Shown here: positions 1 to 6,500 of the stretch, in pieces
Layout of the letters: each line of letters opens with the position of its first letter
Position numbering within the stretch: position 1 is the stretch's first letter
Virus record (IMG/VR): IMGVR_UViG_3300029319_000425
Location: 1 to 26,237 of that record
Length of the DNA: 26,237 nt
Source of the DNA: a virus
Reading direction: 5' to 3' (one strand)
The notes under the pieces: model-generated
The model's input: only the letters and a program-made list of their open reading frames with translations
The model's database searches: none
Told to the model about the DNA's origin: nothing
Translations under genes and position numbers: made by a program

Positions 1-1083
1 TTTTATATAACGATTGAAGGTGGTAACCGACACGACTCTACTGAAGAAATTTATAATCAATACCCAATGTATCGTAAAAAAAACCTTAATATAGTAGTTG
101 TTGAGAGTATAGACCGAAAAGAAATGCACGAACTTTATTTAAATTTAGCTGGTGGTAAAGCTCCAAATGACCAAGAGAAAAGAACTGGTATTTATGGTAA
201 GGTATCTGATGTGGTTAGAAAGACATCAGAGGGTTTGGTTTCAATGTGGGATAAAGTGAAAAATATAACAAAAGAAAGAATGGATGATGATTTAATGATA
301 GCTATGATAATGAATTATGTTACCAATGGTAGTTTTGGAAAACACCCAATTACTGGTAAGAAAGGAGCAGAAGTTCTTGATTCTTTATATGAGACAAGTG
401 AATATGATACTAAAAGGTTCAACTATGTTACTGATAACTTAAAGATGTTTTGGGACAATGTAACAAAGTGGGAAATGATTACGAGTAAACAACCTAAAGT
501 AATAATTTATTTACTAACGGTATTATTTTCAGAGTTCCAAAATAAATACAAAATATCTAAGAAAAAGAAATTTATCAATGAGTTTTTTGAGTATTTTATT
601 GATGTGTACGAATATGACCACGATAAAAATGGTGAAACTAGAATTAGGTTTAAAAATGGTGACGGTAGTTATACTTACAAAAACTTACTAGGTAATATGT
701 TAATGAACTTATCAATACTTGATGAAGTAGAATTTTTAGTTAGGTCTGAACTTATACCAATATTAGAAAATAAGGATGTAATAGTGCCAATTAATACTGA
801 AGAATTTACACTTAGTCATCGTAAAGAGTATATCGGAAAAAATAAGTTTAAGAAAAATGGTAATTTATTTGTCACTATTAGAACTAACAATAGGGAGTTG
901 ACCTTGTTACCTGGTGAATCAGAATTCAAAGATGTTAGTATAACCGAAGCATTTTCAAATAGATGTGAGTTAGACCACATTGTACCCAAATCTAAAGATG
1001 GAAAAACCATAATGAAAAACGCTGAATTAACATCTAAAGAATACAATAGAAAAAAATCTGATAAGGAATTAAATGAAAACTAA
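1..1083 (+). CDS. DUF262 (ParB/Srx-like) plus HNH endonuclease, 5'-truncated
   Basis: The frame is open from base 1, so the gene begins upstream; the ATG at 67 is internal. The first codons read ITIEGGNRHDST, the position of the DUF262 nucleotide/DNA-processing motif (usually DGQQR). About 35 residues on comes YLNLAGGKAPNDQEKR, the typical DUF262 'LN.GG.pLn.qE.R' motif. The middle is helical and unrecognised. The C-terminus is an HNH nuclease core: CELDHIVPKS, then KNAELTSKEYNRKKSDK. DUF262 combined with an HNH-type domain is the architecture of GmrSD-like type IV restriction enzymes, which cut modified DNA, but many phage DUF262-HNH proteins have no known target. It overlaps the next gene by 11 bp and heads an apparent 7-deazaguanine cassette. 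I am confident of a nuclease; whether it attacks host DNA, rival phage DNA or something else is unknown. Confidence 0.75.
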   Translation, partial: FYITIEGGNRHDSTEEIYNQYPMYRKKNLNIVVVESIDRKEMHELYLNLAGGKAPNDQEKRTGIYGKVSDVVRKTSEGLVSMWDKVKNITKERMDDDLMIAMIMNYVTNGSFGKHPITGKKGAEVLDSLYETSEYDTKRFNYVTDNLKMFWDNVTKWEMITSKQPKVIIYLLTVLFSEFQNKYKISKKKKFINEFFEYFIDVYEYDHDKNGETRIRFKNGDGSYTYKNLLGNMLMNLSILDEVEFLVRSELIPILENKDVIVPINTEEFTLSHRKEYIGKNKFKKNGNLFVTIRTNNRELTLLPGESEFKDVSITEAFSNRCELDHIVPKSKDGKTIMKNAELTSKEYNRKKSDKELNEN

Positions 1084-1453
1084 CATAGTATGTAGATTAC
1101 AAGTAGAGGGTATTCATAATTGGTCTGAAGCAAGTAAGTTTGAACCAACGATGAAGTATCTTGAACACCCACATAGACATATGTTTCACATTGAAGTCAA
1201 GAAAGAAGTTTTTCATGATGACAGAGACGTGGAGTTTATTGTGTTTAAAAGAAAAATAAAAAAGTATCTTGAGAAAAAATATTACTCACCAGAATATGAT
1301 TGTTGTGATTTTGGTGGACAATCTTGTGAGATGTTAGCTCACGAATTATATACAGAATTTGATTTGTGTCATTGTTCAGTATTTGAAGATAATGAAAATG
1401 GAGCTGAAGTAACGGGATACGTTGATACATTTTGGAGTTCAACAACAGTATGA
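1073..1453 (+). CDS. QueD/PTPS-like T-fold protein, catalytically divergent
   Basis: A 126-aa protein of the tunnelling-fold 6-carboxytetrahydropterin synthase (QueD) / 6-pyruvoyl-tetrahydropterin synthase family. The zinc ligands appear kept: H15 (in GIHNWSEA) and H34/H36 (in HPHRH, where QueD has HGH). A pterin-anchoring glutamate equivalent is probably E86 in SCEMLAHEL, and E105 in VFEDN sits near the usual C-terminal Glu. However, no cysteine lies ahead of the HRH motif, where QueD has its catalytic Cys, and the D-H-H stretch of the catalytic dyad is replaced by a Cys-containing segment (YDCCDFGG). It may therefore be a repurposed paralogue rather than a real QueD. From memory, a phage QueD paralogue called DpdL has been proposed as a 7-carboxy-7-deazaguanine decarboxylase; I cannot confirm that this belongs there. 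It lies four genes from a DpdA-like gene and overlaps the following gene as ATGA. Confidence 0.75.
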   Translation: MKTNIVCRLQVEGIHNWSEASKFEPTMKYLEHPHRHMFHIEVKKEVFHDDRDVEFIVFKRKIKKYLEKKYYSPEYDCCDFGGQSCEMLAHELYTEFDLCHCSVFEDNENGAEVTGYVDTFWSSTTV

Positions 1454-1857
1454 GTAAAAAAGTTTATATAAGTTGGGAAGGATATGATAGTTATATTGAT
1501 TCCATAACAAATTGGGTAAAAACGAGTGATTTAAATTTGGGAGCTGTATATGGATTGCCTCGTGGTGGCTTACCCATAGCAGTATCTTTATCTCACAGGT
1601 TACATTTACCATTATTAATGGATTACTACGATAGAAAAATCGTAACTGATAAAAAGATATTGGTGGTGGATGATATAGCTGACACAGGCCATACTTTGAA
1701 AGATTTTGAAAACAAACACAATATAATTTGTACATTTCATTATCATGAACAATCAATAATAGAACCAGATTATTGGATACATAAAAAAGATGATGATTGG
1801 ATTGTATATCCGTGGGAACTCAATGATAGTGATGAAATACAGGATTATTTAAAATGA
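1450..1857 (+). CDS. Purine phosphoribosyltransferase, Gpt/xanthine-guanine type
   Basis: 135 aa from the ATG that overlaps the upstream stop codon (ATGA). A longer TTG reading from 1432 is possible, but GGAG at 1434-1437 looks like the ribosome binding site for the ATG. The type I PRTase PRPP loop is clear at residues 70-83 (ILVVDDIADTGHTL), and YGLPRGGLPIAVSLSHRL (34-51) matches the N-terminal PPi loop and helix of bacterial Gpt. The VYPWE near the C-terminus (119-123) recalls the WIEQPWD-type end of xanthine-guanine PRTases that binds the base. The family converts guanine, xanthine or hypoxanthine plus PRPP into the nucleotide. The inferred role is salvage of the guanine that DpdA releases when it swaps bases in DNA; processing of a 7-deazaguanine base is an alternative. 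It is shorter than E. coli Gpt (about 150 aa) but seems complete. Confidence 0.8.
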   Translation: MSKKVYISWEGYDSYIDSITNWVKTSDLNLGAVYGLPRGGLPIAVSLSHRLHLPLLMDYYDRKIVTDKKILVVDDIADTGHTLKDFENKHNIICTFHYHEQSIIEPDYWIHKKDDDWIVYPWELNDSDEIQDYLK

Positions 1858-2846
1858 AAATAATTTATTTACCATTAGAACATATAGAATCAAGATACAC
1901 AACAGCTCTCGATAGAGACATTGTAAATTATCTTGACAACAATAACATTGATTATGTAAGAATTTATCCTGATATTCCAACTCCTACACAAATGAAAGCT
2001 GGTAGTTTTTTAGATGCTGAGTTCACAATACGATTCAAAGCAGAACAAATAGCTGAAGTAGCTAGATTGTATCGTGAAGATGAAATAAACTCAGGTGATA
2101 TCGTTTGGTCATCTGATTTATGGCATCCAGGTTTACCCGAAAGTATAGCCTATATGAATTACTTTGCCAACAAAGATGTCAAGTTAAGAGGATTGATTCA
2201 TGCTGGTTCATTCACCGATACAGATTTTGTTCGTGATATGGAAAGGTGGGCTAAAAACTTTGAAGATATTTTATTTGACGTTAGTGATAGAATTTTCTGT
2301 GGTAGTGAATTTATCAAACAAGATATTATCAAGAAAAGAATAATTCAACCTGATAAATTACAAGTAACAGGTTTTCCATTAGACTTGAAAAACTTAGACA
2401 AGTATAGAATGAAACACAAAAAAGAAAACATAGTTTTATTTAGTGCCAGAAATGTTGATGAAAAACAGCCTTGGTTGTTTCAACAAATGAAAGATAGATT
2501 AGAATCCAAAACACAATGTCAATTTATAAACACTCAAGAGTTGGATTTAAATAAAGATGAGTTTTACAAACTAATATCTAAGTCCAAGATTATGGTGAGT
2601 TTTGCTCTACAAGAAAATTTTGGTTTTAGTATGTTGGAGGCCAGATACTTGGGTTGTAAAGTAGTTGTACCAAATAGATTGGTATATCCTGAGTTATATC
2701 ATTCGGATGATTTATATAATACATTTGATGAGGCATGTAGTATGGTTGAGGATAAATTAGAAAATTGGGATAGTGAATTAGGTTATTTTGATGAGGATGA
2801 TAGTATGACATTTCATGATTGTTTTGAAAAATGGTTTAGGAGATAA
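1854..2846 (+). CDS. GT-B glycosyltransferase, GT4-like
   Basis: A 330-aa protein with a two-Rossmann GT-B pattern. The N-terminal half starts MKIIYLPLEHIE and contains GLIHAGSFTD. The C-terminal half has a beta-strand start IVLFSARNVDEKQPW (about residue 193) and the nucleotide-sugar site FALQENFGFSMLEARYLG (about 248-265), the E-x7-E signature of GT4-type enzymes, followed by VVPNRLVYPELY. No membrane segment or signal peptide is seen, so it is cytoplasmic. The start overlaps the PRTase stop (ATGA), and the dpdA-like gene begins 1 bp after its stop, so it is embedded in the modification cassette. Phages use such enzymes to glycosylate modified DNA bases, as T4 does for hydroxymethylcytosine. 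Sugar transfer to a 7-deazaguanine or to a protein or glycan is equally open. The family is clear; the acceptor is unknown. Confidence 0.82.
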   Translation: MKIIYLPLEHIESRYTTALDRDIVNYLDNNNIDYVRIYPDIPTPTQMKAGSFLDAEFTIRFKAEQIAEVARLYREDEINSGDIVWSSDLWHPGLPESIAYMNYFANKDVKLRGLIHAGSFTDTDFVRDMERWAKNFEDILFDVSDRIFCGSEFIKQDIIKKRIIQPDKLQVTGFPLDLKNLDKYRMKHKKENIVLFSARNVDEKQPWLFQQMKDRLESKTQCQFINTQELDLNKDEFYKLISKSKIMVSFALQENFGFSMLEARYLGCKVVVPNRLVYPELYHSDDLYNTFDEACSMVEDKLENWDSELGYFDEDDSMTFHDCFEKWFRR

Positions 2847-2847
2847 A

Positions 2848-4053
2848 ATGGGTAAGATAGGTAATTTCAGATACTTTCCATCATTTTCTGTTGGTGGGTT
2901 TGGTGACCAACTGAGAAAAGATTTTAAATTTAAGAGTGGATTTAGTTGTAGATTCTATTCAAAAGAATTTCCAAGTAAATACAGACATACAGATTTCTTA
3001 ATATCAGCTGGTCACTTTATAAAAAATAATACAGACCTTTACGATTTACATGGTTTCACTAAAGATAATTTAGTAATGGGTGATTCAGGTGGGTTTCAGA
3101 TTGCCTCAGGTGCTCTCAAGTGGGACAAAAAATTATTACCTAAATCTTTTAAGTGGTTGGAACACAATTCAGACATATCTATGAACTTGGATATCCCACC
3201 TCGATTAAAATATGAGGGAAAGTTCCAAGAGTGTTTGGATATAAGTATAGAAAATTTTAAATACTTCGCTGATAATCAAAGTGGTAAAACAGAATTTCTA
3301 AATGTTATACAAGGTAATAACCGAGAAGAATATAAAAAGTGGTATGATGAAGTCAAACACTTTCCATTTCAAGGTTGGGCCATCGGTGGAGCCTCTGGTA
3401 ATCCATATAGGTTCACAAGTGGTTTATGTGCTTTGTTGATGGGTAAAGAACACCTTGACGATACTAAAAAGACATTACACGTTTTGGGAACATCAAGGAT
3501 TACAGATTTGTATTTGTTAATACAATTACAAAAGTCATTAGAGGAAGTGGGTTCTAAAATAATGGTAACTACTGATAGTTCTTCACCTGATAGAGCTGTG
3601 GTATTTGGTACATACTATTCTGGTTATAGTATGAAGAGAGCTTCTTGGGAAGGTATTGGGTTTCCAAATGTAGCTAACCACGAAGATTTAGTCAAAGATT
3701 TTGTCAATCTTAAAAATCCATCATTTCCAATTATAAATGAGTTTGATGTTGAATTATCGAAACACGTTGACTTTACTGATATAGAAGATGGGCGAGCTTA
3801 CACAACAGGCATGAGACTACATAATTTTTATTTCTTCAAAGATGTAATTGACAGAATAGAATCGATAGTTTATGCTCATGATTTTATCCTTGAACAAACT
3901 GTCTCGAAAGACTTGTACAATATGTTACACTCGATTGATGAAATGGTAAAGAGTGACAATCCAAATATGGTATTTGAAAAATATAGTCACCTTTATACAA
4001 AATTAAGTAATACAAAAAGACAATCACAAATAAAAACACATTCATTTTTTTAA
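2848..4053 (+). CDS. dpdA: DpdA-like DNA guanine transglycosylase (TGT superfamily)
   Basis: 401 aa starting at the ATG with AGGAGA just upstream; an earlier in-frame ATG (2815) lies inside the glycosyltransferase gene and lacks a site. TGT-superfamily landmarks occur in order: VMGDSGGFQIASG at 77-88 (the base-binding Asp is D79), MNLDIPP at 112-118, NVIQGN at 152-157, WAIGG at 177-181, HVLGTSRITDL at 211-221, and VTTDSSSP at 240-247, whose D243 is the likely nucleophile. tRNA TGTs carry a C-x-C-x2-C-H zinc site near the C-terminus; none is visible here (only C34, C129 and C194), and there is no PUA domain. Both facts point away from tRNA and towards the phage DpdA group, which exchanges guanine in DNA for a 7-deazaguanine base. 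The neighbouring QueD-like gene supports this. The exact DpdA subfamily cannot be set by eye. Confidence 0.82.
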   Translation: MGKIGNFRYFPSFSVGGFGDQLRKDFKFKSGFSCRFYSKEFPSKYRHTDFLISAGHFIKNNTDLYDLHGFTKDNLVMGDSGGFQIASGALKWDKKLLPKSFKWLEHNSDISMNLDIPPRLKYEGKFQECLDISIENFKYFADNQSGKTEFLNVIQGNNREEYKKWYDEVKHFPFQGWAIGGASGNPYRFTSGLCALLMGKEHLDDTKKTLHVLGTSRITDLYLLIQLQKSLEEVGSKIMVTTDSSSPDRAVVFGTYYSGYSMKRASWEGIGFPNVANHEDLVKDFVNLKNPSFPIINEFDVELSKHVDFTDIEDGRAYTTGMRLHNFYFFKDVIDRIESIVYAHDFILEQTVSKDLYNMLHSIDEMVKSDNPNMVFEKYSHLYTKLSNTKRQSQIKTHSFF

Positions 4054-4068
4054 TAGGAGAAAATAGAA

Positions 4069-4842
4069 ATGATACAATTTACACCTGAACAAATACAAGA
4101 TAATTGGAATGAGTTGATAAAACTTATCGAGGATACTTTTGATGGTGAAAGAAAAGACAAATTATTAGAAATGTACAAACATTTTGAAGATAGGATGTGT
4201 GTGGCTCCAGCCTCAGGTACAGAACACTTTCACTTATGTACACCTGGTGGTTATGTAAAACACATATTAAACATCGTTCATTACAGTAAAGAGTTTTACA
4301 AGGTATGGAAAGACAATGGAGCTATGGTTGATGACTATACTGAAGAAGAACTTGTATTCGCGGCTCTTCATCATGATTTAGGAAAAGTTGGAGATTTGGA
4401 AGATGATTATTATATACCAAATGACTCTGAATGGCATATCAAGAATCAAGGTAAGTATTATGTTAATAATCCTGAATTACAATTTATGACTCCACCAGAT
4501 AGAGGTATTTGGTTACTGAATCAATTCGGTATAAAAATGACAATGATGGAGATGATTGGAATAAAACTTACAGATGGTATGTATGATGATGGTAATATAC
4601 AATATCTGAAAGCATATGCTCCTGAGAAAAAATTAAAATCAAATATGCCTCTTATACTACATCAAGCAGATATGGCCACCACACGAATCGAATACGAAGA
4701 TTGGATAAGAGCTAATAAAAAAGAAGAAATAAAAGTTCAAGGTAGAGTTGAGAACATTAAGAAAGCTGTAACGATGGAAGAGACTTCAGAACAATTGACA
4801 CAAAAATCAAAAGACTTATTCAACGAGTTATTTGGTGAATAA
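4069..4842 (+). CDS. HD-domain metal-dependent phosphohydrolase
   Basis: 257 aa with a clear ribosome binding site (AGGAGA at 4055-4060). The HD fold covers about residues 55-210: H65 in GGYVKHILNIVHYS, H102-D103 in ALHHDLGKVGD, and D201 in ILHQADMATTRIEYE, i.e. the H...HD...D metal set. The C-terminal 45 residues are charged and helical. The family hydrolyses phosphate esters, among them dNTPs and cyclic or signalling nucleotides. In several phages with altered DNA bases an HD enzyme removes a competing dNTP (for example dATP hydrolysis by DatZ in Z-genome phages). A similar nucleotide-pool role here is only a guess, because DpdA acts after replication. Homologues of this type are common in marine T4-like phages. 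The gene sits between dpdA and a GNAT gene that starts inside its end. Confidence 0.8.
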   Translation: MIQFTPEQIQDNWNELIKLIEDTFDGERKDKLLEMYKHFEDRMCVAPASGTEHFHLCTPGGYVKHILNIVHYSKEFYKVWKDNGAMVDDYTEEELVFAALHHDLGKVGDLEDDYYIPNDSEWHIKNQGKYYVNNPELQFMTPPDRGIWLLNQFGIKMTMMEMIGIKLTDGMYDDGNIQYLKAYAPEKKLKSNMPLILHQADMATTRIEYEDWIRANKKEEIKVQGRVENIKKAVTMEETSEQLTQKSKDLFNELFGE

Positions 4843-5317
4843 AATAAATCAAATATTGAATTATGCTACAATGAATGATTACAAACAAATCATGGATGTA
4901 TTTAAATTACACAAATCATACTTTCCACACATTCGTGGAGATAAAGTAAAAAGAATGATTGAGAGTAAAAATATAGTATGGGAAAATGGTGTGTTAATAA
5001 CTTGGAATCATTACAAAAGAAAACAAAAAGTTGGAGACTACCAAGCTCAAAAAGGTGATTGTATTTTACATCAGATAGCGGCTGCCAAACAAGGAGATGG
5101 CAGTGCTAAAAAAGTATTTGAGAAATTTATTTGGGATGGTAATAAATACAGAGATGTGATTCTTTCAGTTAGAAGTGAAAATCATAGAGCAAGAGGTTTT
5201 TATGAAAAATATAATTTCAAAGTTGTTAGTGACATTGAGTGGGGAACAAAACAAAAAATAAAAGGAAAAGTTTATTTATTAGAACAAAAAATATTAGGAA
5301 TTAAAAAATGGTTATAG
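4832..5317 (+). CDS. GNAT-family N-acetyltransferase
   Basis: 161 aa from a GTG start that overlaps the HD gene by 11 bp. An ATG at 4871 exists, but the GTG keeps the first GNAT strand and helix (INQILNYATMNDYKQIMDVF), so I prefer it. Motif A, the acetyl-CoA loop, is LHQIAAAKQGDGSAKKVFEKF, in which QGDGSA stands for Q/R-x-x-G-x-G/A. Motif B is VRSENHRARGFYEKYNFKVV, the usual 'N..A..FYek.GF'. It is an ordinary-length, soluble GNAT. The substrate is not deducible. In phages such enzymes are either protein acetyltransferases or part of base hypermodification, and the position beside dpdA makes transfer to a modified base or to a host protein two open options. Confidence 0.8.
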   Translation: MVNKINQILNYATMNDYKQIMDVFKLHKSYFPHIRGDKVKRMIESKNIVWENGVLITWNHYKRKQKVGDYQAQKGDCILHQIAAAKQGDGSAKKVFEKFIWDGNKYRDVILSVRSENHRARGFYEKYNFKVVSDIEWGTKQKIKGKVYLLEQKILGIKKWL

Positions 5318-6421: not shown

Positions 6422-6494
6422 GGGGCTGTAGTTCAGTTGGGAGAACGCCTCCCTTGCACGGAGGAAGTCGCAGGTTCGAGTCCTGTCAGCTCCA
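6422..6494 (+). tRNA. tRNA-Ala (anticodon UGC)
   Basis: A 73-nt cloverleaf. The acceptor stem is GGGGCTG/CAGCTCC (one G-U), the D arm GTTC-AGTTGGGA-GAAC, and the anticodon arm CCTCC-CTTGCAC-GGAGG with TGC at positions 34-36. The variable loop is AAGTC and the T arm GCAGG-TTCGAGT-CCTGT. The discriminator base is A (6494) and no CCA is encoded (ACAA follows), so the host CCA-adding enzyme must finish it. All stems are intact. It lies between the late sigma gene and a bidirectional terminator and is the only tRNA in the window. Confidence 0.95.
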
Positions 6495-6500
6495 CAAATA

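Follow-up and report, generated by a model that had tools for sequence, protein, structure and literature searches.

What might a phage make with a QueD-like protein, a phosphoribosyltransferase, a glycosyltransferase and a DpdA-like transglycosylase encoded in one tight operon, when QueC is nowhere to be found beside them? The question is raised by the first 4.8 kb of IMG/VR virus record IMGVR_UViG_3300029319_000425, the whole of which, 26,237 bases long, is the window analyzed here. We consider it very probable that the gene cassette belongs to DpdA-type DNA modification. It is likely that the pathway is a DpdA pathway without QueC, comprising a step by the QueD-like protein, insertion of a base into DNA, addition of a sugar by the glycosyltransferase, and recycling of guanine by the phosphoribosyltransferase. 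The product would be a 7-deazaguanine bearing a sugar, probably galactose where a GalE gene is coupled to the cassette; we judge as evenly balanced the proposal that this is a hitherto undescribed DNA hypermodification, recurring in several unrelated phage groups that include cultured jumbo phages.

Six plus-strand open reading frames (ORFs) overlap or lie a few bases apart, as an earlier first-pass annotation made from the letters had laid them out. The genes were identified by scans against Pfam, PHROG and NCBIfam, profile alignments, profile-profile comparison, AlphaFold models with fold searches, and sequence searches of the PDB:

1..1083, plus strand: 3' part of an HNH nuclease gene (Cas9-type HNH fold), outside the conserved cassette
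1073..1453, plus strand: QueD-fold protein of family phrog_17812 (8.5e-24)
1450..1857, plus strand: Gpt-like purine phosphoribosyltransferase (PRT) with the PRPP motif VVDDIADTG
1854..2846, plus strand: GT4-type GT-B glycosyltransferase (GT)
2848..4053, plus strand: TGT/DpdA-type transglycosylase (TGT)
4069..4842, plus strand: HD-motif putative phosphohydrolase

The first-pass annotation had named the same six proteins, and profile searches of each agreed in part: the PRT (Pfam 3.2e-9) and the TGT (Pfam 1.1e-6) were over cut-off and the HNH end of the nuclease was recognized, but the GT reached only 4.6e-5 in Pfam, below cut-off, the QueD-like protein had no reliable Pfam match, and the HD protein had none.

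To what extent these genes belong together can be read from their relatives. A search of IMG/VR with the GT found 60 loci with 51-100% identity, which, with each contig counted once and the window added, gave 61 contigs. The QueD-like gene is present in 59 of them, the TGT type and FolE in 46 each, QueE in 44, the PRT in 41, and QueC in none. For the 28 loci with flanks of 5.5 kb or more on each side, the QueD-like protein, FolE and QueE are encoded in every one, the TGT in 26, the PRT in 25, a canonical QueD in 12, and QueC again in none. The two well-flanked loci without the window type of TGT (L040 and L043) have a transglycosylase of the phage 9g DpdA type, making a DNA transglycosylase a feature of 28/28. 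Altogether 15 GT loci do not encode the TGT type; nine of these, L040 and L043 included, carry a different transglycosylase adjoining the cassette, and the other six lie near a contig end or are poorly flanked. Three of the alternative transglycosylases were tested and fell into phrog_887, the 9g DpdA family (3e-29 to 3e-32), and an iterated model seeded with the L040 transglycosylase scored 9g DpdA at 5e-61, although the set of ORFs over which that model was iterated included 9g DpdA, which may have entered it. The GT travels with two separate types of DNA transglycosylase.

The closest neighborhoods supply the genes that the window appears to have lost. In L003, whose TGT is 91% identical to that of the window, the order is QueD, an unknown gene, QueE, a small membrane protein, FolE, a helicase-like gene, QueD-like, PRT, GT, TGT and HD. 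L004, with the same 91% identity, has the same downstream order with FolE and QueE upstream, and its contig begins inside QueE. Since the window begins inside the gene that precedes QueD-like, its FolE, QueD and QueE most likely lie just outside the record, and the window would hold the second, downstream half of an operon for phage DNA hypermodification. L005, with a TGT of 69% identity, reads QueD, QueE, membrane protein, FolE, QueC, TGT and HD, and here QueC occupies the place held in the window by QueD-like, PRT and GT together. Linkage of FolE, QueD and QueE in relatives, and the conservation of that linkage, supports the first-pass proposal of a 7-deazaguanine DNA cassette with a transglycosylase.

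QueC is missing not only from the loci but from complete genomes. A 250-kb record and the genomes of phages PA5oct, ACP17, BUCT-ZZ01, X1 and Phosso gave no PF06508 match over cut-off; X1 had one weak match below threshold. In ACP17, X1 and BUCT-ZZ01 the GT, TGT, QueD-like protein, QueE and FolE are encoded in one region, in PA5oct the TGT, GT, QueD-like, PRT and QueE genes are together, and in Phosso QueD-like, GT, FolE and QueE form one group, the TGT lying at another place in the genome. Among GTDB genomes representing 84,980 species, a single contig was found to carry the GT, its genes being arranged as DpdA1, QueD-like, GT, QueD, QueE, FolE. On these sequence comparisons the GT appears to be almost confined to viruses; the GTDB scan used two short GT patterns, so that distant copies could have been missed.

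FolE, QueD and QueE would convert GTP to 7-carboxy-7-deazaguanine (CDG). Without QueC the phage would not make preQ0, and because QueE is present the natural substrate of the QueD-like protein would be CDG. We propose that this protein stands in for QueC and works on what QueE produces, probably by decarboxylation or a related lyase reaction yielding 7-deazaguanine or a related base. Decarboxylase is one candidate, and the specific assignment as CDG decarboxylase is tentative, leaning slightly towards doubt. Its kinship with QueD, claimed by the first-pass annotation, was borne out by the fold despite the lack of a Pfam match: an AlphaFold model (pLDDT 90) matches Escherichia coli QueD at 4.5e-5 in Foldseek, and hhalign against canonical phage QueDs gives 1.4e-6, placing a PTPS fold in the protein. 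The three zinc-site histidines (H15, H34 and H36) are retained, as is E105, the glutamate aligned with the base-binding residue. The catalytic machinery of QueD/PTPS is absent, with an invariant Leu30 at the position of the catalytic cysteine and the region of the Asp-His dyad missing and unaligned. Many of the canonical QueDs of these operons (e.g., L003:1506-1943) have lost residues in the reverse manner, being without one or two of the zinc histidines while keeping the cysteine and the Asp-His dyad; the two proteins might conceivably work as one joint enzyme. The window gene has near its 3' terminus (1411-1453) a 37-base stretch absent from L002, a near-identical record, and from L004, and its protein thereby has a longer C-terminus. 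In Faecalibacterium phage Roos a 9g-type DpdA gene (L012:8275-9219) directly follows the QueD-like gene, and no GT match was found there.

A comparable step has reportedly been proposed by Cui and colleagues in 2023, who are said to have predicted a 7-carboxy-7-deazaguanine decarboxylase, DpdL. In both cases the QueE product would be processed further in phages lacking QueC, which is the role we propose for the QueD-like protein; no glycosyltransferase is reported to form part of the DpdL prediction.

The base produced by the QueD-like protein would then be exchanged for guanine in replicated DNA by the TGT/DpdA enzyme. The DSGG-Q motif occurs in all 61 members of the TGT family (DSGGFQ in the window, containing Asp79), and Asp243 is invariant, while the TGT zinc motif CxCxxC is absent from the window protein and is missing in 58 of the 61 members. 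Against the PADLOC DpdA model the protein scores 0.0019. Membership in the TGT superfamily is supported by the Pfam score and the catalytic aspartates, whereas the score against the NCBIfam DpdA model is only 0.02.

The GT was identified chiefly by structure. A profile search against PDB sequences gave no match, and it was a fold search with the AlphaFold model that gave GT4 relatives, the enzymes BshA and MshA at 7e-11 in Foldseek. The features of GT4 enzymes are present: a GT-B fold, the E-x7-E motif (E254 and E262), and the basic donor-phosphate residues R199 and K204, all four positions being invariant in 29 sequences, so the GT-B assignment of the first-pass annotation held despite the sub-threshold Pfam score. 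In 19 loci a GalE-like gene starts between -44 and +9 nt from the end of the GT gene, and the one member tested matches UDP-glucose 4-epimerase in the PDB at 9e-56. Judging from gene order, such coupling would be expected of lineages whose GT draws on UDP-galactose or a similar UDP-sugar. The window record yielded no GalE, and in its lineage a host sugar nucleotide may serve as donor. An apparent GalE in PA5oct (L006 10143-10661) was discarded, the match being weak and partial. In phage BUCT-ZZ01 a second GT-like gene (L013:4373-5716) directly precedes the transglycosylase gene.

The GT4 enzyme would add a sugar from a nucleotide sugar, of galactose type where GalE is coupled, and a guanine made bulky by its sugar would keep restriction enzymes from cutting. 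That the GT decorates the base was a guess of the first-pass annotation, and the conserved linkage strengthens it: we think it probable that the modified base, or DNA, is the target of the GT. Several observations weigh against the proposed pathway. The QueD-like protein also occurs in phages without a GT match (phiST, MA9V-3, D479 and Roos); the window is a fragment without FolE, QueD, QueE or GalE; the NCBIfam DpdA score of the TGT is low, as given above, and its hhalign comparison with the single 9g DpdA sequence was not significant. The weakest point of the model is the sugar acceptor. Were the QueD-like protein to do no more than decarboxylate CDG, its product would have no obvious hydroxyl, and the GT would need to attach the sugar at carbon 7, an amine or a carboxylate; otherwise the product of the QueD-like protein must be a different one.

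A rival explanation is a DpdA pathway without QueC and without base glycosylation: the base in DNA would be 7-deazaguanine or 7-carboxy-7-deazaguanine, while GT and GalE together would glycosylate something else, for instance a phage protein or a glycan on the host surface. The bases themselves have a precedent, as simple deoxy-7-deazaguanine and deoxy-7-carboxy-7-deazaguanine are said to have been found in phage DNA by Cui and colleagues in 2023. GT4 enzymes, as the fold matches remind us, have glycans or small molecules as their usual acceptors, and the QueD-like protein in phages lacking a GT match fits this explanation as well. We nevertheless regard it as unlikely, as phages of many unrelated kinds have the GT alongside the QueD-like protein and a transglycosylase, the latter of either of two DpdA types, and essentially no copies of the GT occur outside viruses.

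The proposed pathway with a base-directed GT also gives a place to the PRT, whose Gpt-like character, suggested by the first-pass annotation, was confirmed by the Pfam score and by a match to a PDB purine PRT (1vdm, 1.6e-8). Base exchange releases one guanine for each modified site, and salvage of that guanine, feeding GTP to FolE, fits the PRT, which would return the freed base to the GMP and GTP pool. PRT-like sequence lies inside genes annotated as FolE in phages MMDA13, PaMx25 and VpKK5, and phage immuto, which has a DpdA annotated in its record, carries a PRT gene with QueE on one side and FolE on the other. The HD protein belongs to phrog_5889 (5.2e-12), a family of unknown function. Its earlier designation as an HD hydrolase finds agreement in an HHDLGK motif and in homologs annotated as phosphohydrolases, but not in Pfam. 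The HD gene follows the TGT in close relatives only, namely L003-L005 and most of the L026-L037 group.

The frequency of the PRT in well-flanked loci (25/28), together with the HD protein in close relatives and a putative kinase gene adjoining QueD-like in phiST, could be read differently: the PRT would make a deazaguanine nucleotide, the HD protein and kinases would process it, and a polymerase would incorporate the modified base. We find this improbable, since a transglycosylase in every well-flanked GT locus points to exchange in finished DNA, and the PRT is missing from three of the 28.

The first-pass annotation had gone further and paired the modification with restriction, the phage marking its own guanines while a DUF262-HNH nuclease destroyed other DNA. 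The HNH part of that nuclease is secure (HNH_4, 1.1e-5), and it is the only end of gene 1-1083 that is, the 5' end being missing because the window is the whole record and the contig ends there. The DUF262 domain was not found: PF03235 (GmrSD_N/DUF262) is absent from the window and from 27 related records. A full-length relative of the nuclease in cyanophage Sf-FS3 also gave no PF03235 match, while the N-terminus of the window protein lies partly beyond the contig end. The partial protein had no PADLOC match. A case for linkage can be made from the nuclease gene overlapping the QueD-like gene by 11 nt, a junction shared with L002. Synteny contradicts it. The nuclease occurs in 1 of the 61 GT-bearing contigs, the window itself, and its profile found none in the other 60, a 3' remnant being visible in the near-identical L002, which was the only hit in a scan of IMG/VR for nuclease relatives. 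A helicase-like gene occupies its slot in L003 and L004, and the sole other phage relative, that of Sf-FS3, lies among unrelated genes in a genome where the cassette transglycosylase profile has no match. Its scarcity, the replacement in its slot and the unrelated setting in Sf-FS3 mark the nuclease as a probable chance neighbor, an outcome that the first-pass annotation had itself named as refuting the nuclease link, and we rejected it as part of the system; a joint modification and restriction unit is very improbable. The window nuclease resembles the type IV enzymes GmrSD and BrxU (DUF262-HNH) in its HNH end, and differs from them in having no detected Pfam GmrSD_N domain and in not being conserved with the cassette. 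L002 also ends at the nuclease gene (L002:1-36 against window 1049-1082), and its first 34 bases resemble an inverted, slightly different nuclease 3' end, a hint of a second copy or of an assembly fork.

Very improbable, too, is that the genes raise queuosine in host tRNA, which would suit a TGT-family transglycosylase and the FolE, QueD and QueE common to the queuosine pathway, but without QueC there would be no preQ0 or preQ1, the CxCxxC motif is lost from nearly all TGT members, and a DNA-modifying DpdA of 9g type fills the slot in other lineages.

Among described systems, the proposed pathway is closest in outline to the DpdA pathway of phages 9g, CAjan and nt-1 (PMC6884629), with which it shares FolE-QueD-QueE and a TGT-superfamily DNA transglycosylase; a direct homolog of 9g DpdA occurs in some GT loci. 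The proposed pathway differs in having no QueC and no amidotransferase that we could see, and in possessing QueD-like, PRT, GT4 and, in the 19 loci, GalE genes. DpdA phages have QueC, with isolated cases only that do not (Hutinet 2019, PMC6884629). The bacterial Dpd restriction-modification cluster, as far as it is described where Thiaville 2016 is cited in PMC12783734, likewise contains a TGT-like DNA transglycosylase. No dpd restriction genes were recognized in the cassette, in contrast, and the nuclease is not conserved with it.

Sugars on phage DNA bases are familiar for pyrimidines, such as the glucosyl-hydroxymethylcytosine of T4 and others. The alpha- and beta-glucosyltransferases of T4 are GT-B enzymes that place the sugar on hydroxymethylcytosine in DNA after replication, a course of events like that proposed for the window GT, which differs in being of GT4 type, closest to BshA/MshA, and in having as its proposed acceptor a deazaguanine with no obvious hydroxyl. 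We know of no sugar on guanine in phage DNA, and the papers covered by a literature search contained no report of a sugar on phage deazaguanine. The cassette is best described as a GT-bearing variant of the phage DpdA pathway that has no QueC, nearly virus-specific and widespread, and its novelty is not fully established. If the model is correct, DNA would gain a new kind of base, a deazaguanine that bears a sugar, and the loss of QueC in these phages would have an explanation. New enzymes would come with it, namely a base glycosyltransferase and a QueD-fold enzyme of unusual type, as would a possible target of type IV restriction. Cultured phages carrying the gene group are PA5oct, ACP17, X1, Phosso and BUCT-ZZ01.

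The sole Rfam match in the window is a tRNA-Ala (tgc) at 6422-6495. A GNAT-like acetyltransferase gene (window 4832-5317) overlaps the HD gene and was seen in the window and L002 only. Two unnamed families recur beside the cassette, one of about 170 amino acids between FolE and QueE (L047:11157-11666) and one of about 160 amino acids after the TGT (L047:5470-5946).

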